From: Methanospirillum sp.
GTDB taxonomy: Archaea; Halobacteriota; Methanomicrobia; Methanomicrobiales; Methanospirillaceae
Length of the DNA stretch: 32,384 nt
NCBI GenBank assembly: GCA_012728895.1
Contig: JAAYEG010000047.1
Location: 1 to 32,384 of the forward strand
Direction of reading: 5' to 3'
Shown here: positions 3,487 through 32,152 of the stretch, in pieces
Position numbering within the stretch: position 1 is the first letter of the stretch
How the letters are laid out: each line of letters opens with the position of its first letter
Translations under genes and position numbers: made by a program
The notes under the pieces: generated by a model
The model's input: the letters and a program-made list of their open reading frames with translations, nothing else
Database searches by the model: none
Told to the model about the DNA's origin: nothing

Positions 3487-3561
3487 AGCGAGGTAGGGTA
3501 GTCAGGAGATCCCGACGGGCTCATAACCCGTAGATCGATGGTTCAAATCCATCCCTCGCTA
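3487..3561 (+). tRNA. Initiator tRNA-Met (CAU anticodon)
   Basis: A complete cloverleaf is visible. The acceptor stem AGCGAGG (3487-3493) pairs with CCTCGCT (3554-3560), with discriminator A at 3561. The anticodon arm is ACGGG-CTCATAA-CCCGT with anticodon CAT, and the T arm is GATGG-TTCAAAT-CCATC. The A1:U72 first pair and three consecutive G:C pairs at the base of the anticodon loop are hallmarks of archaeal and eukaryotic initiator tRNA, so I call initiator rather than elongator Met. No intron is present and CCA is not encoded. An upstream TATA box and a downstream T7 run frame it as its own transcription unit. Confidence 0.95.
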
Positions 3562-3593: not shown

Positions 3594-5108
3594 TCAGCGC
3601 ATCCCGGGCAGTCCGATGCCGCTGAAGACCTCGCGCAACTCCGGGTCTTTCCTGAGCAGGAACAGGTAGTACAGCCCGCATGCTCCGATACCCACCACCA
3701 GCGGGAGGATCATCGGGGCCCCCGCATACTTGAGGGCGCCGAGGAGCGCAGCCACCGGGAGAAACGGCAGCAAGGCTTTACCGACGATCTGCGCGGTGCG
3801 CCGGGCGGGTATCCCCGAAAACATCAGCAGACGGACGCAGAGAAAACCGTAGACCACGATCCCCGCGACCCCGAAGAGCAGGATCGAGAGGCGGGCCGAT
3901 CCGGTCAGGCCCCCCGCGACGATCGCAGCGAAACGGGTGATGAAGTTGGCGATATTCATCGTGAGGCCGAACCCCTGCTTCTCCTGGACCATGTAGATGG
4001 TCGAGAGAGGCGATGAAATAAACCAGACGAGGGCCCAGACGGCCAAGAGCTGCGTGTACAGCCCAGCCTCGGCCCATGCCGTTCCGAAGACGACGCTGAA
4101 GAGCTCCCTGCCTATCAGCGCCAGGGTCAGCATGGGGAAGAGTCCGATCCGCAGCAGGATCCTGAAGACGGGTTCGGTGAGATCCCCGAGCCGTCCGTCG
4201 CGCTCCGCGTTCGAGGCGCGCTGGAAGAAGACCTGCTGGATCGCGCTGCCGATCAGGTCCATCGGGAGCACGATCAACCTGAAGGCCAGCGAGTAGTACC
4301 CGACCTGGACAGGCGAGAAGAAGACCGGCAGGAGCAGGGACGGAAGCTGCCACGACGAGACGTTCAGGAGACCCGACCAGGACTCGAAGAGCGGGAACTT
4401 TCTGTACCGAACGAGCATCGAACGGATGCCCGTCAAGGAGACGTGCCTGGAAAACCGGCGCCGGTCATCCCGGTAGATCTGGGCGCCGAGCACGCCCGTC
4501 GCGACGCCCTGGCCGAAGGCACTCGCCCCTATCAGTGCGCCCCCGGTCGCGGATCCCCCGAACCCGGCGGCCAGCTGCCCGCCCGTGATCGCGACGGAAG
4601 AGACGACCCGCGCGACCGAAAGCCTCCCGTACCTGCGGGTTCTGGAGTTCCAGTAGTTGAGCGCAGCGAAGAGCCCCGTGACAAAGACGAACGGCGCGAC
4701 GAGCCAGAGGTTTCCGGCAAGACCCGGCGCGTTCAGGAACGTGACGATGGCGGACTCGAAGAACAGCATCACCGGGAGGGTCAGCAACGAGATTCCCGTT
4801 ACGATCGCGCAGCAGAGCGCCAGGAGGTTGACCGCGTCCCGCTCTTCTTCGGGAAGCATAATGGCGAACTCATACCGGAGGCACGAGACGACCCCGAGCA
4901 CCTTGGTGATCGAGGTGAAGATAGCGAGCAGGCCGAAGGCCTCGGGCGAGAAGAGACGGGCGAGGATCGGCGAGGCGATGATCACGAGCGCCTGGGAGAC
5001 GGTCGTACCTGAGACGAGTTTCAGGACGTCTCGAGAGAACCCCTTCCTCCCTTCCGTGCCCTGCTCCTCGTCCTGTCCGGACTCCACCGGCACCGTTTCA
5101 GCGCTCAC
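3594..5108 (-). CDS. Polysaccharide / oligosaccharide flippase (MATE-superfamily, Wzx-like)
   Basis: A membrane protein of 504 residues with about 12-14 hydrophobic helices in the pattern of the polysaccharide biosynthesis protein family. The first conserved block is SGTTVSQALVIIASPILARL after a charged N-terminal tail, followed by RLFSPEAFGLLAIFTS, a hallmark of Wzx/RfbX-type flippases. Its expected role is to move lipid-linked glycan precursors across the cytoplasmic membrane for surface glycans or N-glycans. I place the start at GTG 5108, which has GGAG 7 nt upstream and overlaps the acetyltransferase stop by 11 nt. An upstream ATG at 5171 would overlap that gene by 74 nt and has no supporting signal. 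It is the second gene of a two-gene operon with the acetyltransferase. Confidence 0.87.
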   Translation of the reverse strand: MSAETVPVESGQDEEQGTEGRKGFSRDVLKLVSGTTVSQALVIIASPILARLFSPEAFGLLAIFTSITKVLGVVSCLRYEFAIMLPEEERDAVNLLALCCAIVTGISLLTLPVMLFFESAIVTFLNAPGLAGNLWLVAPFVFVTGLFAALNYWNSRTRRYGRLSVARVVSSVAITGGQLAAGFGGSATGGALIGASAFGQGVATGVLGAQIYRDDRRRFSRHVSLTGIRSMLVRYRKFPLFESWSGLLNVSSWQLPSLLLPVFFSPVQVGYYSLAFRLIVLPMDLIGSAIQQVFFQRASNAERDGRLGDLTEPVFRILLRIGLFPMLTLALIGRELFSVVFGTAWAEAGLYTQLLAVWALVWFISSPLSTIYMVQEKQGFGLTMNIANFITRFAAIVAGGLTGSARLSILLFGVAGIVVYGFLCVRLLMFSGIPARRTAQIVGKALLPFLPVAALLGALKYAGAPMILPLVVGIGACGLYYLFLLRKDPELREVFSGIGLPGMR

Positions 5109-5697
5109 GCAGGTGCTCCGCCACATCGGTGCCGAGCACGTAGAGCCCCCGACTTCCGCGGTCCCCGACACGTCGCGCGGGAACGCCCGCGATCGTAATC
5201 CCGGGCTCCTCGAACGATCGGTTCACGACCGAGTTCGCGCCGATCGCGATCTCGTCCGCAATCCGGATCGGACCGTAAAGCATCGCTCCCGGCCCGATGT
5301 AGACATTGTCGCCTATCGTCGGGGCCGCGTCATCCGTCCCTGCCTGCGTCCCGATGCTGACGCAGACATGGATCCGGCAGTTTGCTCCGATCCGGACATT
5401 GCCGTTCACGACGATCGTCCCCCGGTGGGCAATCGAGAGGCCCGGCCCAAAGACGTTCGGTGGGATCGAGAAACCGAGGAGCAGGGAGAGGCGGTGGAAC
5501 CGGAGCCAGAGAGAGGTCAGGTACAGCCTTCGGACCGGGGAGACGGGTTGGGACCCGTGATACTCGATCTTCCGGAGCATCCGCTCGAAGCGCCAGATCT
5601 CGTCGCCGAAGAGCCGGGGGCGGCGCCCGGTCTTGCCGAGCGCGGCTTTGTCTGCCTCCAGATAGAATTCGTACTCTTCTCTCGTCTTGATAGGCAC
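5098..5697 (-). CDS. Hexapeptide-repeat acyltransferase, serine O-acetyltransferase-like
   Basis: A protein of 199 aa. The C-terminal half is a left-handed beta-helix made of hexapeptide repeats: GPGLSIAHRGTIVVNGNVRI, then IGANCRIHVCVSIG, then IGDNVYIGPGAMLYGPIRI, then IGANSVVNRSF. It ends in GITIAGVPARRVG, as in CysE and sugar O-acetyltransferases. The His in IAHRG fits the catalytic His of the family. The N-terminal part (VPIKTREEYEFYLEADKAAL) resembles acetyltransferases found in glycan clusters more than true CysE. GTG 5697 is chosen because GGGAGGG at 5706-5712 precedes it by 8 nt and TATA-like boxes lie just upstream; an ATG at 5790 would precede the promoter. Next to a flippase, its likely substrate is a sugar or lipid-linked glycan rather than free serine; this is inference. 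Confidence 0.87.
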   Translation of the reverse strand: MPIKTREEYEFYLEADKAALGKTGRRPRLFGDEIWRFERMLRKIEYHGSQPVSPVRRLYLTSLWLRFHRLSLLLGFSIPPNVFGPGLSIAHRGTIVVNGNVRIGANCRIHVCVSIGTQAGTDDAAPTIGDNVYIGPGAMLYGPIRIADEIAIGANSVVNRSFEEPGITIAGVPARRVGDRGSRGLYVLGTDVAEHLRER

Positions 5698-5730
5698 CAG
5701 ATAGGCCCTCCCTCTGCCTGCCGTTTCCCA

Positions 5731-5756
5731 AAATATACGCCAGAATAGTAATAAAC
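5731..5756 (-). promoter_or_regulatory. AT-rich promoter of the acetyltransferase-flippase operon
   Basis: The minus strand carries GTTTATTAC (5748-5756) and GCGTATATTTT (about 5730-5740), both plausible TATA boxes. Either places the transcription start downstream of the alternative ATG at 5790 and upstream of GTG 5697, which supports the shorter protein. Confidence 0.45.
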
Positions 5757-5889
5757 TCACCCGCTCCCGTCGCGTCCCCACGGGCAGCACAACGACGATA
5801 CCCCTTTATCGCGCTACCGACCATCCTTCTTGAACGACGTTGCCGGCGGCGGATCCGTCGCCGGGGAGACGACGAGGGGGAGATCTGGC

Positions 5890-6501
5890 TTGAAAGTGCT
5901 TGCATTCGGCGCGCACCCCGACGACCTGGAGATCGGGATGGGCGGGACCATCGGCCGGTATACGGCGAAGGGCCACGAGGTTCTGATGGTGGTCGCGACC
6001 GTCCCGAACCAGAAGGCTGAAAGGATTGGGGAGGCAGAAAAAGCAGCCGCTCTGCTCGGGGCGGAGCTGGTCGTGATGGACGTGGTTCCCGACCAGCTGG
6101 TCTTCTCGCGCCAGCTCGTGCGGCGGTTCGACCAGGTCTTCGGCGGGTTCGCGCCCGATGTCGTCTACACCCATTCGAACAACGACTCCCACCAGGACCA
6201 TGCGGCCGTTACGAACGCAGTGATCGCTACCACGCGAAAAAACGACTGTTCGGTTTACATGTACGAACAAACGATTCCCGGAGGAATCGCGCCAAATCCG
6301 TTCCGCGCACAATACTACGTCGATATCTCCGACACGATCGGATCCAAGCTCGACGCGATCATGACCCACCACACCCAGCTCGATACCTACGGTCCGTGGT
6401 GGCTCGAGGGGGTCAAGGGGCGTGCGATGTACCACGGTTTCAAGATCAACGTGAAATATGCCGAGGTTTTCGAGGTCATCAAGCACATCGCGACGTGGTA
6501 G
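5890..6501 (+). CDS. PIG-L family N-acetylglucosaminyl deacetylase (LmbE-like)
   Basis: A 203-aa zinc hydrolase when started at TTG 5890. The signature AHPDDLEIG is at residues 8-16 (His9, Asp11 and Asp12 being the metal/catalytic set) and the second metal motif HQDH at 101-104. The fold matches GlcNAc-PI, GlcNAc-malate and mycothiol-type de-N-acetylases. Expected activity is removal of an N-acetyl group from an amino-sugar conjugate in the cytoplasm. TTG 5890 is favoured over TTG 5830 because GGGGGAG lies 7 nt upstream, the family normally begins a few residues before AHPDD, and a TATA-like CCTTTATC at 5803-5810 would place transcription start near 5833. It diverges from the flippase operon, consistent with a shared glycan function. 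The true substrate is unknown. Confidence 0.9.
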   Translation: MKVLAFGAHPDDLEIGMGGTIGRYTAKGHEVLMVVATVPNQKAERIGEAEKAAALLGAELVVMDVVPDQLVFSRQLVRRFDQVFGGFAPDVVYTHSNNDSHQDHAAVTNAVIATTRKNDCSVYMYEQTIPGGIAPNPFRAQYYVDISDTIGSKLDAIMTHHTQLDTYGPWWLEGVKGRAMYHGFKINVKYAEVFEVIKHIATW

Positions 6502-19469: not shown

Positions 19470-21083
19470 ATGCCGGTGATCACGCTGCCGTATCGCTACC
19501 TCGAACGTCTCGTCGGGCTTTCACGCCAGACGATCGTGGAGCGCCTGCCGATGTTCGGTTCGGACATCGAACGGCTGGAAGAGGACCACGTCGACGTGGA
19601 GTTCTTCGCGAACCGCCCGGATCTCTTCTCGACGGAGGGTGCGGCGAGGGAGCTGCGCGGCTTCTTGGGGATCGAGGAGGGGCTGGCCTGGTACGAGATC
19701 GTGCCCGGGCCCGTCTCGTTCTCCGTGGATCCGGGACTTGCAGGGATCCGGCCGTTCCTGGGCTCCGCCGTTGTGCGCGGCCTCTCGCTGGACGAGGAAT
19801 CGATCATCTCGTTGATGGGGCTGCAGGAGGCGCTCCACTGGGCAGTCGGACGGGGGCGCCGCAAGGTCGCGATCGGGCTCCACGACCTCGCGCGGGTGAC
19901 GCCCCCGTTCCGGTACCTGGCCTCCCCGCGTGATAGAAGGTTCGTGCCGCTCGACCTCGACGAGGAGATGACGATGGAGGAGATGCTCGAGCACCACCCG
20001 AAGGGGCGCTCCTTCGCACACCTCGTCGCCGAGGCGCCGCGTTTTCCCCTGATCGTCGACGCCGACGATCAGGTACTCTCCTTCCCGCCGATCATCAACG
20101 GCGAGCTGACCCGGGTCTCGGAGACGACCACCGACGTGCTGCTCGACTGTACGGGTACGGACCGGCGCGCGGTAGAGACCGCGACGAAGATCCTCAGTGC
20201 TGCGCTGGCCGAGGCCGGCGGGCGGCTCGAGACCGTCGAGATCGACGGGATCGTCACGCCCTCGCTCGCCCCGACCCTGCGCGAGGTCTCGGTCGGCGAG
20301 TGCAACCGGCTCCTGGGGCTCGACCTAGACGCGGGTACAATGGCGGATCTGCTCAGGAGGATGCGCTTCGGCGCCGAGAGGGTGGGCGATGACCTGGTCC
20401 GGGTCGAGGTTCCCTGCTACCGGGCGGATATCATGCACGACTGGGACGTCTTCGAGGACGTCGCGATCGCATACGGGTACGAACGGTTCGAGGCCGTCCC
20501 GTCGAAGACCGCGACGATCGCAGAGGAGCAGCCCGTGAGCCGGCTGAAGCGGGAGGTGCGGGAGGCCCTCTGCGGCCTCGGGTACCTCGAGACCATGCCG
20601 TTCGTGCTGACGAGCGAGGACGTGCTCTTCACCCGCACGCGACGCGCGCCGGCGCCGGACCTGCTACGGCTGCTCCACCCCATATCGGAAGAGCAGTCCG
20701 TGGCCCGGACGTCGCTCATGCCGCTCCTGATGGAGCTCCTCGAGTACAACCGGTTCCGGGAGCTTCCCCAGCGTCTCTTCGCGGTCGGTGAGATCGTGCA
20801 CGGCTACGGGACCGGTCTCGGCACGGCGGCCGTCTCCTGTCACGGCGCGGCAGACTTCTCGGAGGCATACGCCGTCGCGGACGCCCTCTGCCGCGAACTC
20901 GGGCTGGGTTATTCGGCGGTCGAATCCGACGATCCGGCGTTCATCGAGGGCCGGCGGGCCGAGCTCGTGATCGAGGGTGTGACGATCGGGGTTTTCGGGG
21001 AGATCCACCCCGAGGTGCTGGATGCGTTCGGACTCGACCACCCAGTGGCGGCGGTCGAGATCGATCTCTCGGGATTCGTCTGA
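19470..21083 (+). CDS. pheT: Phenylalanyl-tRNA synthetase beta subunit
   Basis: 537 aa, the length of the short archaeal/eukaryotic-type PheT that lacks the bacterial N-terminal tRNA-binding extension. Early [20 protein letters not shown] is the B1-domain signature. The B3/B4 editing region follows in the middle ([15 protein letters not shown]). [17 protein letters not shown] begins the catalytic-like B6/B7 part, and the C-terminus has [20 protein letters not shown]. It is translated 3 bp after pheS. It is the last gene of the endA-trpS-pheS-pheT cluster; after it the sequence becomes accessory. Confidence 0.95.
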
Positions 21084-21460
21084 GACGGGGCGGCGACGGC
21101 ACCCGGCGGAAGGGGCGTAACCCTACGAGGCATCGCCGGGTGGACGGAGTTCACACGCACGGAGAAAGAGCTCAAATGAGGCGAGATAGAGCACCTTGAC
21201 CGGGTTGGAGAGCGCCCCCCTCCGGCTCGCATCGAGCATTTCCCGGATTACACCCCCGTCGAAACATCCGGTTGTCACGCTGTCACTGAAGATATGGAGA
21301 TCCCGCTGGAACTGATCATGCGCGGGGTCATCACTGAGCATCGGCCCTGTGTCGATCGGTTTTCGAACGCCGCGCGAAAAAGAACTGATACCCTGCGAGG
21401 CGGTGTAAACCTGATTGCGTCTCAGGAATGCTGTAGATGATAGTTCGGAATACTCAGATT
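21084..21460. other. Intergenic 377 bp with one weak minus-strand frame
   Basis: The only notable frame is on the minus strand, 21123-21464, 113 codons from a GTG that overlaps the stop of the IS5-type transposase. It has no Shine-Dalgarno and no motif I recognise. Its second half (VIREMLDASRRGALSNPVKV) looks more protein-like than the first. It may be a fragment of the gene into which the IS inserted, or chance. The IS5 end should lie in or near this stretch, but I could not find terminal repeats. Confidence 0.3.
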
Positions 21461-22505
21461 TCACCGCTTTGAATGAAATCTCTTGAGCTTCGGTCCTCCA
21501 GTCCTTGTGGAACCCCCCCCCAGCCTTTCCGCACTATCGGCTCGCAAAAGCTTCCGCTCAGCGCGTTCTTTTCCCTGGATAGTCCGGAGCTGAAGGAGGT
21601 TGCTATTGAAGCATGCAATCACGTTTGCGAGATGGCCCCGTGTCACCGTTGTGACCAGCACGAGGCCGGCGTTGAAGTGCCGTTTGATCACCGCGCAGGG
21701 TCGCTCTCCAAGGGCTCGTGTACGGCCGATCGCCCGGTTTCGTCGTTTCTCCCTGATGGAGAGCGGATGACACCGGAGAGCCCGATGTATGGTCTTGTCC
21801 ATCGAGGCCGCCGGTTTCACGCCGAAATACCCCTTGTCCCGGTAGACCGTCTCTCCCGGTTTCGAGAGGTTGATACGACTGTCACGCAGTGACGCAGTTG
21901 TTGTTGTCACTCGGCGGATCGAATGCCACTCCTTGTCGATGAGGGTGTGAAGTGTATCCCCGAACTGACTCTTTTTCCCTTTCTTCCGCCCAGGTGCCGT
22001 CCCGGCTTCGCCGGGTCCGTGCCTGATTGCCGCGTGTCGTATCAGCGGTCGCATGACCGGGATCGGCGTAAATGAACGTGGCATCCTGGATCACACCCCG
22101 GTGAATTTTCAGGCCGCGGGCATCGAGCTGCTGCTGGAGGCCGGTCCAGAGGTCATCGATCATGCCGGTGTCCACCAGGCGGTTCTTGAACTCCCAGATG
22201 GTTGACCGATCAGGGATCATGGCAGGATACTCAATAAAACGGGGGAACGAAATTCGGTCCCCAGCCTACCGTTCGAGCGCGTGGTCGGAAAGACCATGCC
22301 ACTGCTGCAGCACGAGCAGTTTCATGAGCACGATCACATCGGTGTGAGGATCGCCGCTCTGGTCGGTGTCACTCTGGTTGAGCGTGGACAGCCGGGGACG
22401 AAACCGCTCCCAGTCAATCAGACTCTCGATCTCATTGAGAGGGTTACCACGGGCCGCAATAGCCGCATATTCCTGGTGGAGAAAGAAGTGCCCGAACGTG
22501 CTCAC
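21461..22505 (-). pseudogene. IS5-family DDE transposase, disrupted by an amber codon and a +1 frameshift
   Basis: Three pieces on the minus strand read as one transposase. Codons 22505-22269 give MSTFGHFFLHQEYAAIAARG ... LIDWERFRPRL, the N-terminal domain. TAG at 22266-22268 then interrupts HALER-stop-AGDRISFPRF, where a Gln would be expected. The same frame resumes (IPDRSTIWEFKNRL, then the Asp-rich DATFIYADPG). A single extra base near 21986-21987 shifts the frame inside GTWA(K)KGKKSQFG. The second frame carries DSRINLSKPGETVYRDKGYF and the C-terminal domain ending at 21461. Two point changes would restore a full protein of about 347 codons, so decay is recent. A G9 tract on the coding strand (21511-21519) lies near the C-terminus. 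IS boundaries and target duplications were not found. Confidence 0.85.
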
Positions 22506-22980
22506 CCAGAAAGATCGATAGAAGAGTGGATAGAGGTGAGCTGGGGGTTGTCGCTATTCTCGACGATTTCTCACCACACCCATCTCGTTCGGAAGGCACC
22601 CCTTTTTTGGCAGAGCAATTGTAATACATCTACTGGATTGGGAACTGAGAGCATGAATGAGGTCTCGTGATGTCTAATAAACTCGGTTGTAACCGCTATT
22701 CTGATGCATCGATTGAGTCATCTTGGACCACCAGACCTTCACATCAACCTCGAAGATTTTCTCGAGCATCGAGAGTAGGGATAACGGTCTTCGACAAAGA
22801 GAGGGAGTTATGCGAGAGGCAGCCCCGGTGGAGAAGGCGGTCACCGGTCTACGCTACCATGCTGAATCTCAATACAGATTCGCCCTGCTTTCCCCCCCCT
22901 CTCGACATATCAGAATCGCGAGATACTGTCATGCCAGTCACCGATAACCATCTGTTGGAAATGACTACCGGTGATATCGG
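22506..22980. other. Intergenic 475 bp between the IS5 remnant and the UDP-GlcNAc epimerase
   Basis: No gene is supported. Short frames exist on both strands but lack motifs and ribosome-binding sites. The stretch is visibly less GC-rich than the core genome and includes a C8 run near 22893-22900 and a T6 run near 22605. It should contain the outer end of the IS5 element and the promoter of the epimerase at 22981, but I cannot assign either with confidence. Confidence 0.35.
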
Positions 22981-24048
22981 ATGATCGCGATCGTTCTCGG
23001 CACCCGGCCTGAGATCATCAAGATGTCCCCAATCGTGCGCGAATGCGAGAGAAGAGGGGTCCCCCACTGTATCATCCATACAGGGCAGCATTATTCGTAC
23101 GAGATGGACCGTGCCTTTTTCCAAATCCTCGGGCTGCCCGAGGCCCGGCATAATCTTGCCGTTGGATCCGGCCCCCATTCTGCCCAAACGGGAAGGATCA
23201 TGACGCGAATCGAGGAGGTTTTTATTGCTGATCGGCCCGAGATTGCGCTTGTTCAGGGGGATACCAACACCGTTCTCGGTGGAGTCCTCGCCGCGTCGAA
23301 GATCGGGATCCTGGTGGGACACGTGGAAGCTGGGCTCCGGTCTTTCGACCGTACCATGCCCGAAGAGATAAACCGGGTTGTAGCAGACCACCTCGCCGAC
23401 CATCTCTATGCACCAACGGAACGCGAACGGCGATATTTACTCGACGAGGGGATAGACGATGCGAAGATCTGGGTTACAGGAAACACCATAGTCGATGCTG
23501 TTCACCAGAACCTGGCGATTGCGAGGCGGGAGTCGACGATCTTAACATCCCTGTGTGTAACCCCGCATGACTACGTCCTCGTTACAGTCCACCGTGCTGA
23601 GAATGTGGACTCCCGCTCGAAGCTGGGCTCCATCCTCGCGGCATTGCAGCTGGTCGAAAAGGAGTTCGATAGGGAGATCGTCTTCCCGGTGCATCCCCGG
23701 ACCCGAAAAATGATCGCGGGGTTCGGGCTTGAAACAGACGGGATCCGGATGGTGCCGCCCCTGGGGTACCTCGATTTCCTCAAACTCGAAGAGCAGGCAT
23801 CCCTCATCCTGACTGACTCGGGGGGCCTGCAGGAGGAGGCATGCATCCTGCACGTTCCCTGCGTGACACTTCGGGAGAACACGGAGCGGCCCTCGACACT
23901 TGACGTGGGTGCAAACCTCCTTGCGGGCACTGAGACGGATCGAATCATCGAGGCATCCAGAACGATGATGACACGGGCCCGTTCATGGAAAAACCCCTAC
24001 GGCGATGGAACGAGCGCTGAAAGGATCATCGGACTCCTTGCTGGATAA
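22981..24048 (+). CDS. wecB: UDP-N-acetylglucosamine 2-epimerase (non-hydrolysing)
   Basis: 355 aa with the family landmarks in order: GTRPEIIKMSP near residue 7, HTGQHYSYEMD, QGDTNTVLGG, GHVEAGLRS, MPEEINR and TDSGGLQEEA. These carry the Asp, Glu and Glu of the active site, plus the His of PVHPRT. The enzyme converts UDP-GlcNAc to UDP-ManNAc, the precursor of ManNAc or ManNAcA in surface glycans. GGTGAT at 22970-22975 is an ideal Shine-Dalgarno, 5 nt before the ATG. It opens a three-gene sugar-nucleotide module, although a 227-bp gap with its own promoter separates it from the next gene. Base composition is lower in GC than the core genes, suggesting transfer. No UDP-ManNAc dehydrogenase is in the window. 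Confidence 0.93.
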   Translation: MIAIVLGTRPEIIKMSPIVRECERRGVPHCIIHTGQHYSYEMDRAFFQILGLPEARHNLAVGSGPHSAQTGRIMTRIEEVFIADRPEIALVQGDTNTVLGGVLAASKIGILVGHVEAGLRSFDRTMPEEINRVVADHLADHLYAPTERERRYLLDEGIDDAKIWVTGNTIVDAVHQNLAIARRESTILTSLCVTPHDYVLVTVHRAENVDSRSKLGSILAALQLVEKEFDREIVFPVHPRTRKMIAGFGLETDGIRMVPPLGYLDFLKLEEQASLILTDSGGLQEEACILHVPCVTLRENTERPSTLDVGANLLAGTETDRIIEASRTMMTRARSWKNPYGDGTSAERIIGLLAG

Positions 24049-24053
24049 CTCAA

Positions 24054-24069
24054 AGGGAGATCGCTCCCT
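24054..24069. other. Perfect 6-bp hairpin after the UDP-GlcNAc epimerase
   Basis: AGGGAG-ATCG-CTCCCT begins 5 nt after the wecB stop. A stem this close to the stop may stabilise the mRNA 3' end or aid termination, but no T-tract follows. Confidence 0.4.
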
Positions 24070-24147
24070 GGTGATATCAGCGAACCCGTACTTGTTGCAA
24101 TCATGTAACCTTGCCGCAATTCATATCCGAGAAGAGGACCATTACCA

Positions 24148-24158
24148 AAATATTTATT
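24148..24158 (+). promoter_or_regulatory. TATA box of the tandem epimerase genes
   Basis: AAATATTTATT in the context ATTACCAAAATATTTATTTG is a strong archaeal TATA candidate with a purine/AC-rich BRE side. The predicted start of transcription is near 24178-24182, leaving a leader of about 95 nt before the ATG at 24276, long for this window. Confidence 0.55.
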
Positions 24159-24186
24159 TGAGTAAGTGCATTCAGGATTGATTGAC

Positions 24187-24200
24187 TCCCTCTAGAGGGA
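24187..24200. promoter_or_regulatory. 14-bp perfect palindrome at the start of the epimerase leader
   Basis: TCCCTCTAGAGGGA is a perfect palindrome a few bases after the predicted transcription start. It could be an operator for a dimeric repressor blocking initiation, or a 5' hairpin in the mRNA. Confidence 0.4.
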
Positions 24201-24275
24201 TGGAGACCGGATGTCGCACGAAATATCCGGCGATACGACATGACAGGTGTACCGGGGAGACACCACAGAGATGAC

Positions 24276-25223
24276 ATGGTTATGAGTTCCAAGCGGGTTT
24301 TAGTCACGGGGGGTGCTGGATTCATCGGCACGAACCTCTGCAACGAGCTGCGCCGAAGGGGCCACGAGGTATTGGCAGTCGACCTCCTCAATAATGATCG
24401 GGACGGGTACGAGAGGTGCGACGTTCGGTTTTTCAGGCAGCTAGAAAGGGTTTTTGAACGGCACACTTTCGATTATGTTTACCACCTTGCCGCTGAGTAC
24501 GGACGATGGAACGGCGAGGACTATTACGAAAACCTCTGGCAGACGAATGTTGTCGGAACCAAGAACCTCCTCCGACTGCAGGAGCGGCTCGGGTTCAGGA
24601 TGATCTTCTTCTCGAGCGCGGAGGTTTACGGGGATTACACCGGCGTAATGTCCGAAGACGTTATGGTCAACAACCCGATTCAAGACACCTACCAGATGAA
24701 CGACTACGCGATTACGAAGTGGGCAGGCGAGCTGATGTGTATGAACTCGGCGACCATGTTCGGCACTGAAACGGTCCGTGTCCGTCCGGTCAACTGCTAC
24801 GGCCCCGGTGAACACTTCACCCCGTACCGAGGTTTTATCCCGAAATTCATCTACCACGCCCTTTTCGATCGTCCTTACACGGTATACCGCGGTCATAAAC
24901 GGATCATCGACTTCGTCGAGGATTCGTGCAGAACGTGGGCGAACATCGTTGATCGCTTCATTCCTGGAGAGGTGTACAACGTGGGGGGACGACCCGAATG
25001 GGAGCGCAGCATCCAGGAATATTCAGATCTGATTCTGGAAACCGTAGGACGGGACGACGCGATCGTCACGTACGAGGACGGCGAACCGTTCACGACACAG
25101 ATCAAGACGATGGATTTCTCAAAATCCGAAAGAGATCTTGGGCACAACCCAGCAGTGTCGCCTGAAGATGGGATCCGACGAACCGTTGATTGGATGAAGT
25201 GGTATTACCGGATCGAGGGATGA
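24276..25223 (+). CDS. NAD-dependent epimerase/dehydratase (extended SDR), sugar nucleotide
   Basis: 315 aa from ATG 24276. The Rossmann motif GGAGFIG is at residues 12-18. The catalytic set is Ser in FFSSAEVYG plus YAITK with Tyr144 and Lys148. RPVNCYGPGEHFTPYRGFIP is the typical nucleotide-sugar pocket. The closest general types are UDP-glucose 4-epimerase and dTDP-glucose 4,6-dehydratase; the true substrate is not readable. The YHLAAEYGRWNGEDYYENLW block differs from the standard GalE and RmlB versions. ATG 24276 and ATG 24282 are equivalent starts after AGAG; an ATG at 24240 is possible but less likely. It ends overlapping or touching the next SDR gene, so both act in one pathway. Confidence 0.9.
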   Translation: MVMSSKRVLVTGGAGFIGTNLCNELRRRGHEVLAVDLLNNDRDGYERCDVRFFRQLERVFERHTFDYVYHLAAEYGRWNGEDYYENLWQTNVVGTKNLLRLQERLGFRMIFFSSAEVYGDYTGVMSEDVMVNNPIQDTYQMNDYAITKWAGELMCMNSATMFGTETVRVRPVNCYGPGEHFTPYRGFIPKFIYHALFDRPYTVYRGHKRIIDFVEDSCRTWANIVDRFIPGEVYNVGGRPEWERSIQEYSDLILETVGRDDAIVTYEDGEPFTTQIKTMDFSKSERDLGHNPAVSPEDGIRRTVDWMKWYYRIEG

Positions 25224-25228
25224 GTAGC

Positions 25229-26242
25229 ATGGAGTCGTTCGGAAGCTTTTTCAAGAATAAGAAGATCCTGATCACAGGTGGGGCCGGTGCCATTGGCGGG
25301 CAGCTCGCGAGACGGCTGGTCGAGCTGGGCGCAGGGCGTATCGTAATCCTCGACAATCTGTCGTCATCCTACACATGGAACATCGCCCGGGGCGGAAACG
25401 TTCAATTCATCGAGGGCGACATTCTTGACGAAGAGAAACTTCGCTGGGCCTTCAAGTGCAGGCCCGAGATCGTCTACCACCTCGCTGCTCACTTCGCAAA
25501 CCAGAATTCGGTCGACAACCCCGAAACGGACCTGATGGTCAACGGTGTCGGCATTCTCAAGGTTCTTCAGTACGCTCAGTTGACCGGCGTCGAGCGTTTT
25601 GTGTACTCTTCGTCAGGCTGCGGGGTATATGGACTCGACTCGAAGATGCCATTTGAAGAGCACGACGTCTCGATCCGCCTCCACACTCCGTACCAGGTGA
25701 CAAAACTTCTCGGGGAGCTCTATACGAATTACTTTTACAGCATGCATGGTCTCCCGATCGTCAACGCCCGGTTTTTTAACTCGTATGGTCCGGGGGAGGT
25801 GCCGGGCCAGTACCGGAACGTCATACCGAACTTCATGTTCTGGGCAATGAAGGGCATCCCCCTGCCAATTACCGGTGATGGAACAGAGACACGCGACTGG
25901 ACGTTCGTTGGTGACATCGTCACGGGCCTCCTTTTAATGGGAGTGCGGGACGAGGCTGTCGGGGAGGCATTCAACCTCGGGAACGGGCATGAGCAGCACG
26001 TGATCGATATGGCGAGCAGGATCCTGGAGTTGACCGGAAGCGAAGCAGGGATTACCTTCACACAACGACGAGACTGGGACGTAAAGACAAGGCTCCTTTC
26101 CTGCATCGACAAGGCCCGGACGCGTCTCGGGTACGAGCCGAAGATCCCCTTCGAGCGAGGACTCGAGCGTACATACGAATGGTTCGTCGACAACTGGGAG
26201 AACATCAAGAGCTCCGCCGAGTTTGCTTCTCCTGCACCCTGA
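25229..26242 (+). CDS. NAD-dependent epimerase/dehydratase (second extended SDR)
   Basis: 337 aa from ATG 25229, which has GAGGG with 9 nt spacing. ATG 25220 is also possible and would overlap the previous stop by 4 bp (ATGA). The Rossmann motif is GGAGAIG at residues 17-23. The catalytic Tyr155 and Lys159 lie in YQVTK, with the Ser cluster YSSSGCGVYG before them. ARFFNSYGPGEVPGQYRNVI and the ETRDWTFVGD motif are typical of UDP-glucose/UDP-GlcNAc 4-epimerases and related dehydratases. It shares the fold but not close sequence with the SDR upstream, so the pair is not a recent tandem duplication. A T7 run (26279-26285) ends the unit. Substrate specificity is unknown. Confidence 0.9.
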   Translation: MESFGSFFKNKKILITGGAGAIGGQLARRLVELGAGRIVILDNLSSSYTWNIARGGNVQFIEGDILDEEKLRWAFKCRPEIVYHLAAHFANQNSVDNPETDLMVNGVGILKVLQYAQLTGVERFVYSSSGCGVYGLDSKMPFEEHDVSIRLHTPYQVTKLLGELYTNYFYSMHGLPIVNARFFNSYGPGEVPGQYRNVIPNFMFWAMKGIPLPITGDGTETRDWTFVGDIVTGLLLMGVRDEAVGEAFNLGNGHEQHVIDMASRILELTGSEAGITFTQRRDWDVKTRLLSCIDKARTRLGYEPKIPFERGLERTYEWFVDNWENIKSSAEFASPAP

Positions 26243-26278
26243 GCATGGAACCCCGGAACAACCGGACAGACGCTTCTG

Positions 26279-26285
26279 TTTTTTT
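26279..26285 (+). terminator. T-tract terminator after the sugar-nucleotide module
   Basis: Seven consecutive T residues start 36 nt after the stop of the second SDR gene and before the IS1595 element. Confidence 0.5.
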
Positions 26286-26358
26286 AACGGGAGTTGTTGC
26301 AGGTTCCCCGAGACAAGTTCTAGGTCTGGTTGAAAGAATGAAGGAGTATAGTGGCAAA

Positions 26359-27146
26359 CTAGTCACCAACCTCCTTCTCCAATAACGCAGGGATGCGCTT
26401 CAATTTCACTTTGTCGCTCTCCTTTCTGTGATTATATCACCAGACGTATTCACCCAAATACAAGTATAATTTATCTTGACGAATACCTCCATTTGCCGAG
26501 AGTTTTCTCTTCAGATATCCCCAGAATCCTTCCAATCCATCGATATGATTCCCCTTGCCATCACTATACTCTCGATCTCCACGATTTACCAGCCGAAGGA
26601 CAAATCCGCGCGATGCACGGCCCTTATACGCCCGCCACATGTCTGAGCAAACGATCGACCCCTTCCGCACCTCGCTCGAAATGAGCGGCTGGAGGGTTGC
26701 GGCATCGACTTTCTCGACAATCTCTGCCCAGACCAGTCCATTCCGGCAGAGAATTCCAAAGACCGGTTGTTTCTTCGTTCCTCTCCCTCGCTTCGTCTTC
26801 TGGTCTCGGATTGACGTCCGCTCGTTCTTCCAGTGACCGCCGACGTACGTTTCGTTCACCTCGACGGTTCCGGAAAAGAACTCCGGGACATCCTTGACGA
26901 GACCCCGCCGTATCCACGCGAGGGCTCGTAATACCCGTTTTCGGTCGATCCCGGTCCAATCCGGAATGGACTAGTTACTCTGTTCAAGGAGGAACCAGGT
27001 GATGATCCCATTCCATTGATCGCTGGTCAGGTACACGGAAGACGGTGTGGCGTGAAGTCGTAGCGACACAGAGAACACCGGCGTTTCCCAGTGCCCAGAC
27101 GATACACCTTCGCACAGTGACATCGCGGGCAGACGATCCGCGTCAT
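26359..27146 (-). pseudogene. IS1595-family transposase, multiply disrupted
   Basis: Starts at ATG 27146 with GGAGG just upstream. The zinc ribbon reads CPRCHCAKVYRLGTGKRRC and then CSLC. A one-base deletion near 27036 shifts the frame after FTPHRLP. VYLTSDQWNGIITWFLLEQS then runs to a TAG at 26971-26973, where Gln is expected. IPDWTGIDRKRVLRALAW follows in the same frame up to VEVNETYVGGHW. In this family that motif is VEVDETY, and its Asp is the first catalytic residue, so it has become Asn here. The ISXO2-like core continues to YLYLGEYVW, and a TGA at 26437-26439 stands where Arg (CGA) is expected before YNHRKES. The reading could run on to 26359. Four separate lesions mean it is certainly inactive. 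Confidence 0.85.
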
Positions 27147-27176
27147 GAACCCCCTCCTAAGAGATAGGGGTTGGTG
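26364..27176 (-). mobile_element. IS1595-family insertion sequence (decayed), about 813 bp
   Basis: Imperfect terminal inverted repeats bound the element: CACCAACCTCCTTCTC at 26364-26379, and the reverse complement of 27161-27176, CACCAACCCCTATCTC. They match at 12 of 16 positions, including the outer 8. Inside is an IS1595-type transposase on the minus strand. The outer 8 bp on each side (26356-26363 and 27177-27184) are not a direct duplication, so either the target repeat has decayed or one end has been rearranged. The right end lies 1 bp from the stop codon of the aldehyde dehydrogenase gene. Confidence 0.7.
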
Positions 27177-27177
27177 G

Positions 27178-28578
27178 TTACAATGACTCTATGCCCTTAT
27201 TAATAAGGATACTCTTCGACTCGCTCCATGCCTGGATGGCCTGGAGCCCGTTCTCGCGACCGAGCCCGCTCTGTTTAACGCCGCCGAAGGGTACCTCGGG
27301 TGGGACCTTCGTATGGTGGTTCACCCAGACGATCCCGGCCTGGAGCCGCTCAATCGCATCGCGTGCTGTCCTTGGATCGCTGGTCCAGACCGACGCCCCC
27401 AGGCCGTACGGACTGTCATTGGCTAGAGCGATCGCCTGGTCCATATCGGTGAACGAAGTGACGGGGAGAACCGGTCCGAAGACCTCTTCGCGGAGCAGCC
27501 GGGATCCGGGTACGACATCCATGATCAGGGTCGGCTCGTAGAAATTACCGGCGGCGAACTTGTTACTCCGGGGCACCTGTCCGCCGCAGAGCACTCGTCC
27601 CTCTTCCCGCTCGACTGCCTCGTCGACAAGACAGGCTACTCGTGTCCTACCAGAATGGCTGTTCATCGGCCCGATGCGTACTCCCGGGTCAGTGCCGCGC
27701 CCCATCTGGAGAGCTGTGACCGCGTTCTCGAGACGGGCCTCGAGAGCGGGCGCGATAGACTCGTGGACAAAAAGACGCTTGACCGAGGTGCAAACCTGGC
27801 CGCAGTTGTAGAACCTGTGTGCGACAGCCCCCGAGATCGCACGGTTAAAGTCCGCATCCGCGCAGATGATCATCGGGTCCGAGCCCCCGAGTTCGAGGGT
27901 GACTCGCTTGATCTCCTGCGCTGCGAGCGAGTAGATTCGTCTTCCAGTCTCCAGGGAGCCGGTGAACGATATCTTCCTTATGCGTGGCTCGAGCACCAGA
28001 GCTTCTCCCACTTCCTCGCCTGCACCCGTAACAAGGTTGAGGGCCCCCGCAGGCAAACCCGCCTCACCGAGAATCTGCGCGAGCGAGAGTGGTGTCAGTG
28101 GAGCTCCTGACGCGGGCTTGAGGACAAGCGTGTTTCCCGCCAGAAGGGCTGCGCCGACCTTCCAGCCGAAGATCAGGGCAGGCATGTTCCACGGGATGAT
28201 GGCCCCCGTGACCCCAATGGGTCTGCAAAGGACGAACGCATCGATGCCTCCCGACAGGCGATGGAACTCGTCGGCCGCGTTCGCCGAGATACCTGAATAA
28301 TACTCCAGGACGTTTGCGGTTCCGCGGATCTCGTCGGTTGCCTCACGGAGGGGTTTGCCCTGCTCGGCAGTGAGCTGCCTGGCAAGCTGGCCGACACGTG
28401 CTCGAACCAGGGCGGCAGCTCTCTCCAGGACCCTTCCCCTCTCCCTCATGGTCCGCGCAGACCATTCCGGGAGCGCCGCCTCAGCCGCTTCGACAGCGGT
28501 TCCGATGTCCTCCCTGGTGCCCAGGGGTAACCGCGCGAGCACCTCGCCGCTCGCCGGGTCGCGGACCTCGAATGTCAT
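27178..28578 (-). CDS. NAD(P)-dependent aldehyde dehydrogenase (lactaldehyde/succinate-semialdehyde type)
   Basis: 466 aa, full length for the short ALDH group. The oxyanion Asn is Asn131 in IIPWNMP, the general base is Glu229 in TLELGGSDP, and the catalytic nucleophile is Cys263 in NCGQVCTS. The NAD-site motif is SFTGSLETGRRI, and the C-terminal PFGGVKQSGLGREN is intact. It oxidises an aldehyde to the acid. In methanogens a protein of this size (CofA) makes lactate for coenzyme F420 from lactaldehyde, a reasonable but unproven role here. GGAGGAG 7-8 nt before the ATG is a strong Shine-Dalgarno. It lies 47 bp downstream of the homocysteine hydrolase, probably in one operon. The TAA stop is directly beside the IS1595 end, but the C-terminus looks complete. 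Confidence 0.92.
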   Translation of the reverse strand: MTFEVRDPASGEVLARLPLGTREDIGTAVEAAEAALPEWSARTMRERGRVLERAAALVRARVGQLARQLTAEQGKPLREATDEIRGTANVLEYYSGISANAADEFHRLSGGIDAFVLCRPIGVTGAIIPWNMPALIFGWKVGAALLAGNTLVLKPASGAPLTPLSLAQILGEAGLPAGALNLVTGAGEEVGEALVLEPRIRKISFTGSLETGRRIYSLAAQEIKRVTLELGGSDPMIICADADFNRAISGAVAHRFYNCGQVCTSVKRLFVHESIAPALEARLENAVTALQMGRGTDPGVRIGPMNSHSGRTRVACLVDEAVEREEGRVLCGGQVPRSNKFAAGNFYEPTLIMDVVPGSRLLREEVFGPVLPVTSFTDMDQAIALANDSPYGLGASVWTSDPRTARDAIERLQAGIVWVNHHTKVPPEVPFGGVKQSGLGRENGLQAIQAWSESKSILINKGIESL

Positions 28579-28625: not shown

Positions 28626-29852
28626 TCAGGTGCCTGCATCCCAGGCGGAGAGATACCGAGCCTGTTCGTCGGTCAGGCAGTCTATCGCGATACCGAGAGC
28701 CCCCAGCTTTTCTCTGGCGACGGCCTCGTCGATCGATGCGGGAACCTCGTGGACCCCGGGGGCCAGTCTCTTGCCGTGCTTTGCCACGTATTCAGCAGAG
28801 AGGGCCTGCAACGCGAAGGAGAGGTCCATCACCTCGATCGGATGCCCCATCCCCTTGGGAGTGGCGAGGTTCACGAGCCGACCCTCGGCGAGGACGTGGA
28901 TGCGCCGGCCCGCGAGCGTGAACGTCTCGATGCCCTCGTGCTGTTCTATCTCGTCGGCAAGTGAACGGAGCCCGTCGAGGTCGATCTCGACGTTGAAATG
29001 GCCGGCATTGGCCAGTATCACGCCGTCATTCATGCTCGCGAAGTGCCGTTTCCCTATCACGTCGATATCCCCCGTCGTGGTGACGAAGATATCGCCGTAC
29101 TCAGCAGCTGCCTCCATGGGCATCACTTCGAATCCGTCCATGTGGGCCTCAAGCGCTCGCCTCGGGTCGACCTCGGTCACGATAACGCGAGCTCCCATCC
29201 CCCTCGCCTTCCTTGCGAGACCACGACCGCAATAGCCGTACCCTGCGACGACGAGCCGCTTCCCAGCGATGAGCACGTTCGTTGTGATCATCAGCGATAC
29301 CAGGGCGGACTCGCCCGTACCGTGGACGTTGTCGAACGATCGCTTCATCGGGGTGTCGTTCACGGCGATGACAGGGAACTCGAGCTTCCCCTCAGCTGCC
29401 ATTGCCCTGAGCCGGTGGATACCCGTCGTCGTCTCCTCGCACCCGCCGATCACACCGTCAAGGAGCTCGCGTCTGGTGGTGTGCAACCGGTGGATAAGGT
29501 CCATGCCGTCGTCGATGGTCACCGTCGGCCGGGTGTCGAGCACGCGGTCGATCGCGGCGTAGTACTCGTCGACCGGGCAGGCGTGGCGCGCAATGCACGA
29601 GATTCCCTCGAAAGACCCGAGCGCTGCCGCGACGTCGTCCTGGGTCGAGAGGGGATTGCAGCCCGTGATCGCCACATCGGCCCCGCCGGCAGCGAGCGCC
29701 ATGACGAGGTTCGCAGTTTTTGCCTCGACGTGGAGTGCCATCGCGATCTGCTGCCCCTCGAGCGGCCGCTCTACTGAAAAACGCTCTCTGATCGCACCCA
29801 GTACCGGCATGTACTGGGCGGCCCAGGCGATCTTCCGCGAACCCGAGTCCAT
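28626..29852 (-). CDS. ahcY: S-adenosylhomocysteine / S-inosylhomocysteine hydrolase
   Basis: 408 aa from ATG 29852, near the size of archaeal homologues. Substrate motifs: [39 protein letters not shown] and [18 protein letters not shown] (conserved Lys and Asp). The NAD-binding loop is GYGYCGRG at about residues 204-211. [10 protein letters not shown] lies later. The enzyme recycles homocysteine after methyl transfer; methanogen members can prefer S-inosylhomocysteine after deamination. The start is uncertain: ATG 29888 and TTG 29897 are in frame. The only AT-rich promoter-like element (29874-29892) lies between them and 29852, which favours 29852 with a short leader. It diverges from hisF. 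Confidence 0.93.
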
Positions 29853-29925
29853 GTCCGTAGAGGTGGGCGGCGGGCTACTTGAATCCATAACCCTCAAGAG
29901 CGTCGACGCCGATCAGATGGGTACA

Positions 29926-30732
29926 ATGGTGCTGACCAAGCGGATCATCCCGTGCCTTGACATCAAGGAAGGGCGGGTCGTGAAGGGCACGAACTTCATC
30001 GGTCTGCGGGACGCTGGCGACCCGGTCGAACTCGCTGCGAGGTACAACGAACAGGGTGCCGACGAGGTGGTCTTTCTCGATATCACCGCCTCCAGTGAGG
30101 GGCGCGGCACGATCGTCGAGGTGATTGAGCGCGCGGCCGACCAGCTCTTCCTACCGCTCACGGTCGGCGGCGGGATCCGGAGCACCGACGACATCCGCCT
30201 GATCCTCCGAGCCGGTGCCGACAAGGTGAGCGTGAACACGAGCGCCGTAGAGCGGCCATCTCTCATCAGGGAGGCGGCGGAAGCCTTTGGCACGCAGTGC
30301 ATCGTCGTTGCTATCGACGTCCGGCGTAACATGGAGCCGAATCCCATCGCCACGCCCGTCACTCAGGCCGACGGCCGGTCATGCTGGTACGAAGTGGTGA
30401 CATACGGAGGCAACCGCCCGACCGGGATCGACGCCATCGCGTGGGCCCGGGAAGTGGAGGCCCTCGGGGCGGGGGAGGTGCTTCTCACGAGCATGGAGAC
30501 CGACGGTACGAAGGACGGCTTTGACCTGCCGATCACGGCCAAAGTCTCGGAAGCGGTTGGCATCCCGGTGGTCGCGAGTGGCGGGGTTGGTAAGCTCGAA
30601 CACTTCTACGACGGGCTCGTCATCGGAAAGGCCGACGCCGTCCTCGCCGCCTCGGTCTTCCATTACGGAGAACTGACCGTTCGCGACGTGAAGCAGTATC
30701 TGGCAGGGCGGGGCGTCCCGGTCAGGCCCTGA
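29926..30732 (+). CDS. hisF: Imidazole glycerol phosphate synthase cyclase subunit
   Basis: 268 aa (beta/alpha)8 barrel. The start [21 protein letters not shown] matches the family, with catalytic Asp12 in CLDIKEG and the second acid in VVAIDVRR. Phosphate loops are TVGGGIRS and VASGGVGK. HisF uses ammonia from HisH to cyclise PRFAR into imidazole glycerol phosphate and AICAR. ATG 29926 fits the family start; an in-frame ATG at 29917 adds three residues, and longer frames through ahcY are not credible. No other his gene is nearby, as is common in methanogens where his genes are scattered. It shares a short divergent promoter region with ahcY. Confidence 0.95.
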
Positions 30733-30982: not shown

Positions 30983-32152
30983 ATGAATGGCCCTGAATCC
31001 CACCTAGTATTGGGAAAAGGAGAAGACAGGGCCATGATCCCGTTATCGGTTCTCGAAGATTATCAACAGTCCGATGGTATGCGGAACCTCACTACGTGGT
31101 TCCTGAACCTCGTGATGCAGCTGGAAGCGCTTCACCAAGCCGGAGCCGATCGCCACGAACGTACGGCGACCAGGACCGCTCATCGGAACGGCACCCTCGA
31201 CCGCTCGCTTCGGACCCGGTACGGCGATTACACCCTCACGAAACCGCAATTCCGAGAACGTCCGTTCGAAACCAACGTCTTCGGTCGCTACGCCTGTGTC
31301 GAGAAGGCCATGGTGAACGCGATCGCCGGATCCTATCTCCAGAGCGTCTCGACCCGGCAGGTCGAGTCGATCATCGCCCATCTCGGAATCGATCAGCTCT
31401 CGCCGTCGTCGGTCTCCCGTATCGCCCAGAACCACGACCGGGAGGTGCAGGAGTTCCTGGCGCGGCCGATTGAGCATCCGATCCCGTATCTCTTCCACGA
31501 TGCCTCGTACTACACCATCCGTGACGGCCCCCTGTATGTCTCGAAAGCACTCCTCGTTTCCGCCGGCGTCCGTGAGGATGGGTATCGTGAGCTTCTCAGC
31601 CCCACGATCGCCGACTGCGAGAACGAGGCGTTCTGGTCCGGGTTCTTCGACGAGCTGAAAGAACGGGGCCTGACCGGCGTTCAGCTTGTCGTCTTGGAAG
31701 GCCATCGCGGTATCCAGGCAGCCGTGGCATCAGCGTTCAAAGGTGCCTCGTGGCAGATGTGTCAGGTCCACACGACCCGAGCGGTCCTGAGGAGCGTGCT
31801 AAAGAAGGATCAGCGCGAGATCACCGACCTGCTGCGGGAAGCCTGCGGCACCGAACGGCGACTCCAGGAGTGTGCCGATGACCTCGCTGGACGAGGATAC
31901 ACGAGAGCAGCAGCAACGATTGAACGGTTGCTACCCTGGCACCTGAATTACACGGCCTTTCTAAAGGAGCACTGGAACCGCATCCAGACGACCAACGGCA
32001 TAGAACGGATCAACAAGGAAATCAAGAGGAGAACCCGAGTCGTGGGAGCGTTTCCTTCGGAGCACGCGCTCCTGCGATTGGCGGGATAGATCCTCAGGGA
32101 CATCAATGACGAGTGGGTCACAGGAAAAAGGTATTTGTCGATGGAGGAGTGA
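30983..32152 (+). pseudogene. IS256-family (mutator type) transposase with late amber codon and altered catalytic Asp
   Basis: The frame runs from ATG 30983 (or ATG 31034, MIPLSVLEDY) to TAG at 32087-32089, then continues in the same frame as ILRDINDEWVTGKRYLSMEE to TGA at 32150-32152. The neighbouring copy has TCG (Ser) at the matching position, so TCG to TAG removed 20 residues. First catalytic Asp is in LFHDASYY. The second site, normally SDGHRGI, reads LEGHRGI, so Asp is replaced by Glu. The catalytic Glu region TTNGIERINKEIKRRTR is present, and SWQMCQVH is the family signature. Loss of the second Asp alone should abolish transposition; this is inference from the DDE mechanism. Confidence 0.8.

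Follow-up and report, generated by a model that had tools for sequence, protein, structure and literature searches.

How three intact nucleotide-sugar genes came to lie between decayed insertion sequences (IS) in a Methanospirillum genome, and what these genes make, is the question raised by contig JAAYEG010000047.1 (assembly GCA_012728895.1). The window, by which we mean the whole stretch of 32,384 bases, is contig C39 of an 80-contig genome that is 95% complete, and at positions 22,981–26,242 it carries wecB followed by two genes for short-chain dehydrogenases/reductases (SDRs), here called SDR1 and SDR2. An earlier note on this DNA had described the module as horizontally acquired and devoid of its own glycosyltransferases, with SDR substrates beyond prediction and an unusual surface sugar as a possibility. 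We consider it likely that the trio is the front end of a conserved methanogen surface-glycan cluster, brought to or stranded at the junction between pheT and hisF by IS activity, with the adjacent block inverted. Taken alone the locus is an ordinary nucleotide-sugar cassette, probably moved by IS elements, and its value lies in the comparison across methanogens.

The first gene, wecB (22,981–24,048, + strand), has an intact frame, and going by family membership its predicted product is a non-hydrolysing UDP-N-acetylglucosamine (UDP-GlcNAc) 2-epimerase. It scores 396.8 bits against the NCBIfam equivalog model TIGR00236 (cut-off 210.15 bits; positions 3–360 of 366) and 64.7 bits against the NeuC_NnaA model, under the cut-off of 235.9. 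The genome has a second wecB (G000:C63:5000-24000), 47% identical to that of the window, with a LegB-like SDR on the same contig and an adjoining membrane protein that reads as a flippase by eye, which points to a separate glycan locus. SDR1 (24,282–25,223, + strand) lies in an open reading frame (ORF) that opens at 24,240, and homology to its relatives begins at about the ATG at 24,282. SDR2 (25,220–26,242, + strand) very probably starts at the ATG at 25,220, which overlaps the SDR1 stop codon in an ATGA, and not at the upstream TTG at 25,190. Both are extended SDRs (Pfam Epimerase) with a mutual identity of 30%, so that the epimerase and two non-identical SDRs of the earlier note are borne out.

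Neither SDR reaches an NCBIfam cut-off among the matches listed, which explains why no substrates had been named for them. Each has a close solved relative, however, and the view that their substrates were unpredictable does not hold. In phmmer searches of the Protein Data Bank (PDB), SDR1 matches 8W3U and 9AR1 (Mth373 of Methanothermobacter thermautotrophicus) at 590.8 and 589.0 bits over 319 residues, with the next structure at 100.6 bits, and SDR2 matches 6PMH and 6PNL (Mth375 of the same species) at 522.7 bits over 331 residues, with the next structure at 199.3 bits. Mth373 has been proposed to be a UDP-xylose synthase, on the basis of its sequence and of density for UDP-xylose (Carbone et al., FEBS J 2025; PMC12820599). 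The same authors liken Mth375 to WbmF, see in it a candidate oxidoreductase and/or 3,5-epimerase, and call its activity and substrate inconclusive. With that proposal itself unproven, SDR1 may be described as a Mth373-type (UDP-xylose-synthase-like) nucleotide-sugar SDR and, as proposed for Mth373, a candidate UDP-xylose synthase (EC 4.1.1.35), and SDR2 as a Mth375/WbmF-like candidate 3,5-epimerase.

The catalytic motifs given in Table 4 of PMC12820599 were compared with relatives chosen beforehand for an identity of at least 60%, the window copy being excluded (122 rows for SDR1, 89 of them distinct; 88 rows for SDR2, 57 distinct). In the window, SDR1 keeps the catalytic Ser-Tyr-Lys, the Glu of S-A-E, Tyr73 and Arg75 (EYGRW) and Lys275 as in Mth373, and among its relatives both EYGRW and S-(A/C)-E occur in 122 of 122 rows. 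HFANQ, SSGC and YQ(V/I)TK are each found in 88 of 88 rows for SDR2 and are retained in the window copy. At positions that are otherwise invariant among thinned rows (69 for SDR1, 48 for SDR2 and 27 for WecB), the window has 1 change in 96 for SDR1 (median 0, highest row 7), 2 in 110 for SDR2 (median 0, highest row 8) and 3 in 81 for WecB (median 1, highest row 6). All three frames are intact, with no clear decay.

The two SDRs travel together. In an even sample of the phylum that comprised 390 genomes (completeness at least 90%, our own genome counted), SDR1 was found in 31 and SDR2 in 27; 25 genomes have both, 6 only SDR1, 2 only SDR2 and 357 neither. A Fisher value for these counts takes no account of how the genomes are related and is not read as a probability. 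Judged from coordinates, three of the six SDR1-only genomes carry a divergent homologue (50–53%), two have the gene at a contig edge and one has a short match. Where both are present they lie on a single contig in 24 of 25 genomes, and in 17 the ends of the matches range from an overlap of 31 nt to a gap of 30 nt. Beyond this sample, SDR2 was matched in 34 of the 42 genomes reached through SDR1 loci chosen as Methanobacteriales (one titled only 'archaeon'), and the other eight may be incomplete. Both SDRs also turn up in records that bear the names Methanosarcina, Methanospirillum, Methanoculleus and Methanolinea.

The company that the pair keeps was followed in named genomes, using the best 80 of 166 SDR1 relatives from a pattern scan (identity 68–82%). 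Titles of these loci are mostly of methanogens or other archaea, with bacteria named in four (L033, L053, L072, L081), and since many loci end at contig borders, counts of neighbouring genes are lower bounds. Clustering, with one member scanned against profiles for each glycosyltransferase family named here, placed a glycosyltransferase family 2 (GT2) family in 60 of the 80 loci, SDR2 in 35 and wecB in 20; by tblastn wecB was found in 22, one of them at 34% identity. The scanned member of the common GT2 family is AglJ-like, under the AglJ cut-off. Among the 35 loci with SDR2, glycosyltransferase family 4 (GT4) families 5, 7 or 26 occur in 24, and either those or GT2 in 31. In the genome whose SDR2 is sister to that of the window (G009), the order is wecB, SDR1, SDR2, GT4, methyltransferase, DUF362, an unscanned ORF, GT2 and GT4; neighbour families 36 and 47 correspond, in their scanned members, to DUF362 and methyltransferase. 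A tally of 71 of the 80 loci with any glycosyltransferase family was set aside, since it included these two families and others that had no scanned member. In Methanobrevibacter, a radical SAM gene of the peptide-modifying type TIGR04083 often comes next after the SDR1 locus (e.g. L089:13640-14776); clustering placed its family in 15 of the 80 loci, with one member identified. The locus itself belongs to a known kind of cluster, and the linkage of SDR1 to SDR2 across methanogens is the useful new point. No description of wecB, Mth373 and Mth375 as a linked module in methanogens lacking pseudomurein was found in the open-licence literature, and when the main text of a pangenomic study of pseudomurein (PMC11915815) was searched by term, neither Mth373 nor Mth375 nor epimerases came up.

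At the window's locus this company is missing. When the 885 ORF products of the 80 loci were compared with the flanks of the trio (21,081–22,985 and 26,230–27,200), none matched at E 1e-3, in agreement with the absence of dedicated glycosyltransferases claimed before. A cluster reduced to its front end, with no glycosyltransferase nearby, could be a decaying relic: a truncated leftover, its glycosyltransferases deleted and its function gone. Long end branches in the trees and private changes above the median would fit this, as would the fact that the genome has no close orthologue of the GT2 that usually accompanies the pair: with a single query, taken from a distant host, the best of its other GT2-like proteins reach 36% identity across 298 residues and 42% across 222. 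Yet the three frames are intact and joined by the ATGA overlap, the catalytic motifs are retained, and private changes are fewer than in several other rows; the genome also encodes those other GT2-like proteins and has the second wecB locus with its LegB-like SDR. We think it improbable that the trio is a relic, and from these sequence features we take it as functional, with glycosyltransferases presumably supplied from elsewhere in the genome.

How the trio reached its position is best read from its flanks. To its left lies an IS5-family remnant (about 21,431–22,573, right end 22,561–22,573, − strand), frameshifted into two transposase pieces in different frames that score 61.2 and 47.8 bits, each below the NCBIfam cut-off of 140, with the larger piece barely meeting Pfam DDE_Tnp_1 (23.3 against 23). 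The remnant extends beyond its two ORFs; a further 12 partial copies occur elsewhere in the genome (67–90% identical), and its limits were set by alignment with five of them. A search for its inverted ends found one exact match to the 11-base end motif in the window, on the right side only. To the right of the trio is an IS1595-family transposase remnant (26,437–26,859, − strand; 96.9 bits against a cut-off of 75), which covers profile positions 68–210 of 215 only, the first 67 being absent from the open frame. These are the IS5 and IS1595 remnants that had been proposed as the borders of the module. Being of different families, they do not make up a composite transposon, and that candidate was rejected.

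Composition sets the module apart, again as first described. In 1-kb windows its GC content is 0.53–0.58, against 0.63–0.70 in 40 and 0.575–0.625 in 11 of the 51 windows outside 21,001–27,500. GC content at third codon positions (GC3) is 0.68–0.72 in the module, and 0.785–0.933 in nine of ten core genes; the tenth, an aldehyde dehydrogenase (ALDH) gene, has 0.72.

Comparison within the genus points the same way. Instead of recurring at the same locus throughout the genus, the case that the earlier note had set against its own account, the trio is found in 0 of 6 congeners: at the search thresholds used, neither SDR1 nor SDR2 was detected in any of the six other genomes of the genus that were examined. 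Their completeness is 66–93%, so that absence from a single genome is weak evidence, but the site itself is readable in five of the six. In all five, pheT and hisF face each other without an insert, their aligned ends 10–22 bp apart, and the 3′ end of hisF abuts pheT; in the sixth, G006, pheT gave no match. In the window, pheT (19,470–21,083, + strand) forms the left flank, and DNA homology to the congeners ends by 21,086 at the latest. Given the low-GC insert, the IS remnants on both sides, the lack of own glycosyltransferases, the absence from the six congeners and the undisturbed pheT-hisF junction in five of them, it is simplest to suppose that the trio was gained or relocated here.

The alternative is that the family had the trio from the start and the other members of the genus have lost it, the IS elements having merely landed alongside. 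The pair does occur in 10 other genomes of the same family, in other genera, and its place in the trees is among Methanomicrobiales. Against this stand its absence from all six congeners, with the closed junction in all five that can be read, its GC3 below that of nine of the ten core genes and the IS remnants on both sides; moreover, the pair comes and goes within three further genera (g8, g12 and g5). Ancestral retention is therefore an explanation that we hold to be unlikely, and gain at the site is favoured by the absence from congeners, the composition and the IS remnants. A distant donor was also considered, and the trees do not support one: the sister of SDR2 comes from a same-family genome (SH-aLRT 99), SDR1 is placed among Methanomicrobiales with support below 95, and WecB is placed without resolution. 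Horizontal acquisition as claimed in the earlier note thus stands as regards congener absence, the empty site in five of six congeners and composition, but not as regards a distant origin, and we read the trio as the displaced core, probably acquired horizontally, of a nucleotide-sugar cluster of known kind.

Insertion is not the whole of what distinguishes the site. In the window pheT is followed by IS5, wecB, SDR1, SDR2 and IS1595, then by the reversed genes for ALDH (27,178–28,578, − strand), ahcY (28,626–29,897, − strand) and hisF (29,917–30,732, start approximate, + strand), and then by IS256. In the congeners, ahcY and then ALDH follow hisF in four of the five readable genomes (ALDH ends at a contig border in one). 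As assembled, hisF is inverted relative to all five and ahcY and ALDH relative to those four, and this changed gene order speaks for an insertion plus an inversion in the assembly. The first description of the module was to that extent incomplete, missing both the inversion of hisF-ahcY-ALDH at the site and the recurrence of the cassette in methanogens. The IS256-family transposase gene (30,983–32,089, + strand) near the contig end is a possible partner in the inversion, and the assembly break at the contig end is probably due to repeats. ALDH is 57–63% identical to the congener copies at the same place, and ahcY and hisF are 81–89% identical; the low identity of ALDH, with its low GC3 of 0.72, suggests a possible gene displacement.

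IS elements are the presumed movers of the trio to the pheT-hisF junction. Its part in the cell may be pictured as follows. WecB would convert UDP-GlcNAc to UDP-N-acetylmannosamine (UDP-ManNAc), and a dehydrogenase encoded elsewhere in the genome would supply a UDP-hexuronate. SDR1 would oxidise a UDP-hexuronate at C4 and then decarboxylate it, as proposed for Mth373, and SDR2 would epimerise a UDP-sugar, probably an acetamido-hexuronate, at C3 and C5, in line with the proposal for WbmF and the suggestion made for Mth375. Both SDRs would serve one glycan, their sugars passing to a lipid carrier and being assembled by glycosyltransferases encoded elsewhere. The genome, at its 95% completeness, has three nucleotide-sugar dehydrogenases, all under equivalog cut-offs; the best specific model is TviB (UDP-GlcNAc 6-dehydrogenase) for two and the archaeal UDP-ManNAc dehydrogenase for one, and PDB searches with two of them gave no match at 1e-60. 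Beside the cassette (loci L009–L100 and from L156 onward, two omitted), a dehydrogenase was found only at L024, and near the divergent SDR1 homologues of L171–L173 (50–53%). That at L024, from Candidatus Argoarchaeum (L024:5199-5878), is TviB-like, has broken frames and lies directly downstream of SDR2. It is 57% identical to the dehydrogenase on contig C54 of our genome, and its position beside SDR2 hints at a hexuronate substrate.

The stereochemistry of such a reaction bears on pseudomurein. In Fischer projection, 3,5-epimerisation turns D-GlcNAcA (N-acetyl-D-glucosaminuronic acid) into L-TalNAcA (N-acetyl-L-talosaminuronic acid), and D-ManNAcA (N-acetyl-D-mannosaminuronic acid) into L-GalNAcA (N-acetyl-L-galactosaminuronic acid). 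With UDP-GlcNAcA as its substrate, a 3,5-epimerase would thus yield exactly the pseudomurein sugar N-acetyl-L-talosaminuronic acid, and the SDR pair, or SDR2 alone, might make it, as suggested for the group 3 SDRs of Methanothermobacter; the finding of SDR2 in 34 of the 42 SDR1-bearing genomes reached from Methanobacteriales loci agrees with this. However, PMC12820599 has pseudomurein described from Methanobacteriales and Methanopyrales and judges Mth373 an unlikely participant in the talosaminuronate route, and both enzymes also occur in the Methanosarcina, Methanospirillum, Methanoculleus and Methanolinea records. We regard a role as pseudomurein-sugar enzymes as very unlikely for the pair here. 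Its presence in methanogens without pseudomurein means that it is not pseudomurein-specific, and outside the pseudomurein lineages either the substrate differs or the sugar has a wider distribution than has been supposed.

The linkage matters for this reason. Two archaeal SDRs with recent crystal structures and unproven reactions are genetically linked across methanogens, including lineages that lack pseudomurein, and this linkage ties the function of each to that of the other, counts against a role limited to pseudomurein and yields a short list of UDP-hexuronates as candidate substrates. One could go further and propose a single dedicated pathway made up of the Mth373-type and the Mth375-type SDR, with WecB often feeding it, which supplies an L-acetamido-hexuronate and a decarboxylated partner sugar to a surface glycan in many methanogens, although we put this forward as a speculation that is quite unlikely to hold. 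If it did hold, and SDR2 acted on UDP-GlcNAcA, the product would be UDP-N-acetyl-L-talosaminuronate, and a supposed marker of pseudomurein would be present in methanogens without it; were SDR2 to act on WecB-derived UDP-ManNAcA, the product would be UDP-L-GalNAcA. The unusual surface sugar of the earlier note is in this sense possible, but no likelier here than in any other genome with both SDRs.

Several observations weigh against our account of the trio as a functional front end that was moved to this site. Only 20 of the 80 named loci, many of which end at contig borders, have wecB. The gatekeeper stretch of SDR2 is variable, its commonest form occurring in 15 of 88 rows. The window copies have end branches of more than median length (0.23 vs 0.068, 0.28 vs 0.097 and 0.51 vs 0.20), and their private changes at invariant positions exceed the medians of 0, 0 and 1, which together allow for some relaxation. 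None of the three dehydrogenases is best matched by a UDP-glucose dehydrogenase model, and this weakens UDP-glucuronic acid (UDP-GlcA) as a substrate for SDR1. No activity is shown for Mth373 or Mth375 in PMC12820599, whose authors cannot say whether the UDP-xylose density in Mth373 had an enzymatic origin. Finally, in congener G001 (L133:2899-4377, contig C158) hisF is followed by a PaaK-like AMP-ligase gene, under all cut-offs, and ahcY was not found after hisF; the PaaK-like gene replaces ahcY there, so that this neighbourhood also changes without the module.

Elsewhere in the window, a second small surface-glycan group lies at 3,594–6,501 and comprises a gene resembling those of polysaccharide flippases, one for a hexapeptide transferase and one for a PIG-L deacetylase. 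It is adjoined by a tRNA-Met gene (3,487–3,561), and this tRNA was the single gathering-level match of an Rfam scan.

Set beside the systems that have been solved, the three proteins are close to known enzymes to different degrees. The best solved relative of WecB is the UDP-GlcNAc 2-epimerase of PDB 4NEQ and 4NES (417 bits, residues 2–353). SDR1 resembles Mth373 over nearly its full length, with the motifs EYGRW, SAE, YAITK, PVNC and HKRII in common and the last Lys of the TTxxK stretch retained; unlike in the setting of Mth373, it lies here directly 5′ of SDR2 and behind wecB. SDR2 shares HFANQ, SGC, YQVTK and ETRDW with Mth375, including the active-site Cys and Ser, and differs in having FFNS for FFNV, EVPGQYRNV for EVPGKYRNV and DVKTRL for DAKTRL. 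Its host belongs to an order outside the two described with pseudomurein in PMC12820599, unlike the host of Mth375. The next-best solved relative of SDR2, WbmF of Bordetella bronchiseptica (PDB 2PZJ and 2Q1S), is far more distant at 199.3 bits. According to the comparison of Mth375 and WbmF in that paper, WbmF has a Cys at the matching place, carries Ala where Mth375 has Ser, and has a diacetamido-hexuronate as its substrate (PMC12820599).

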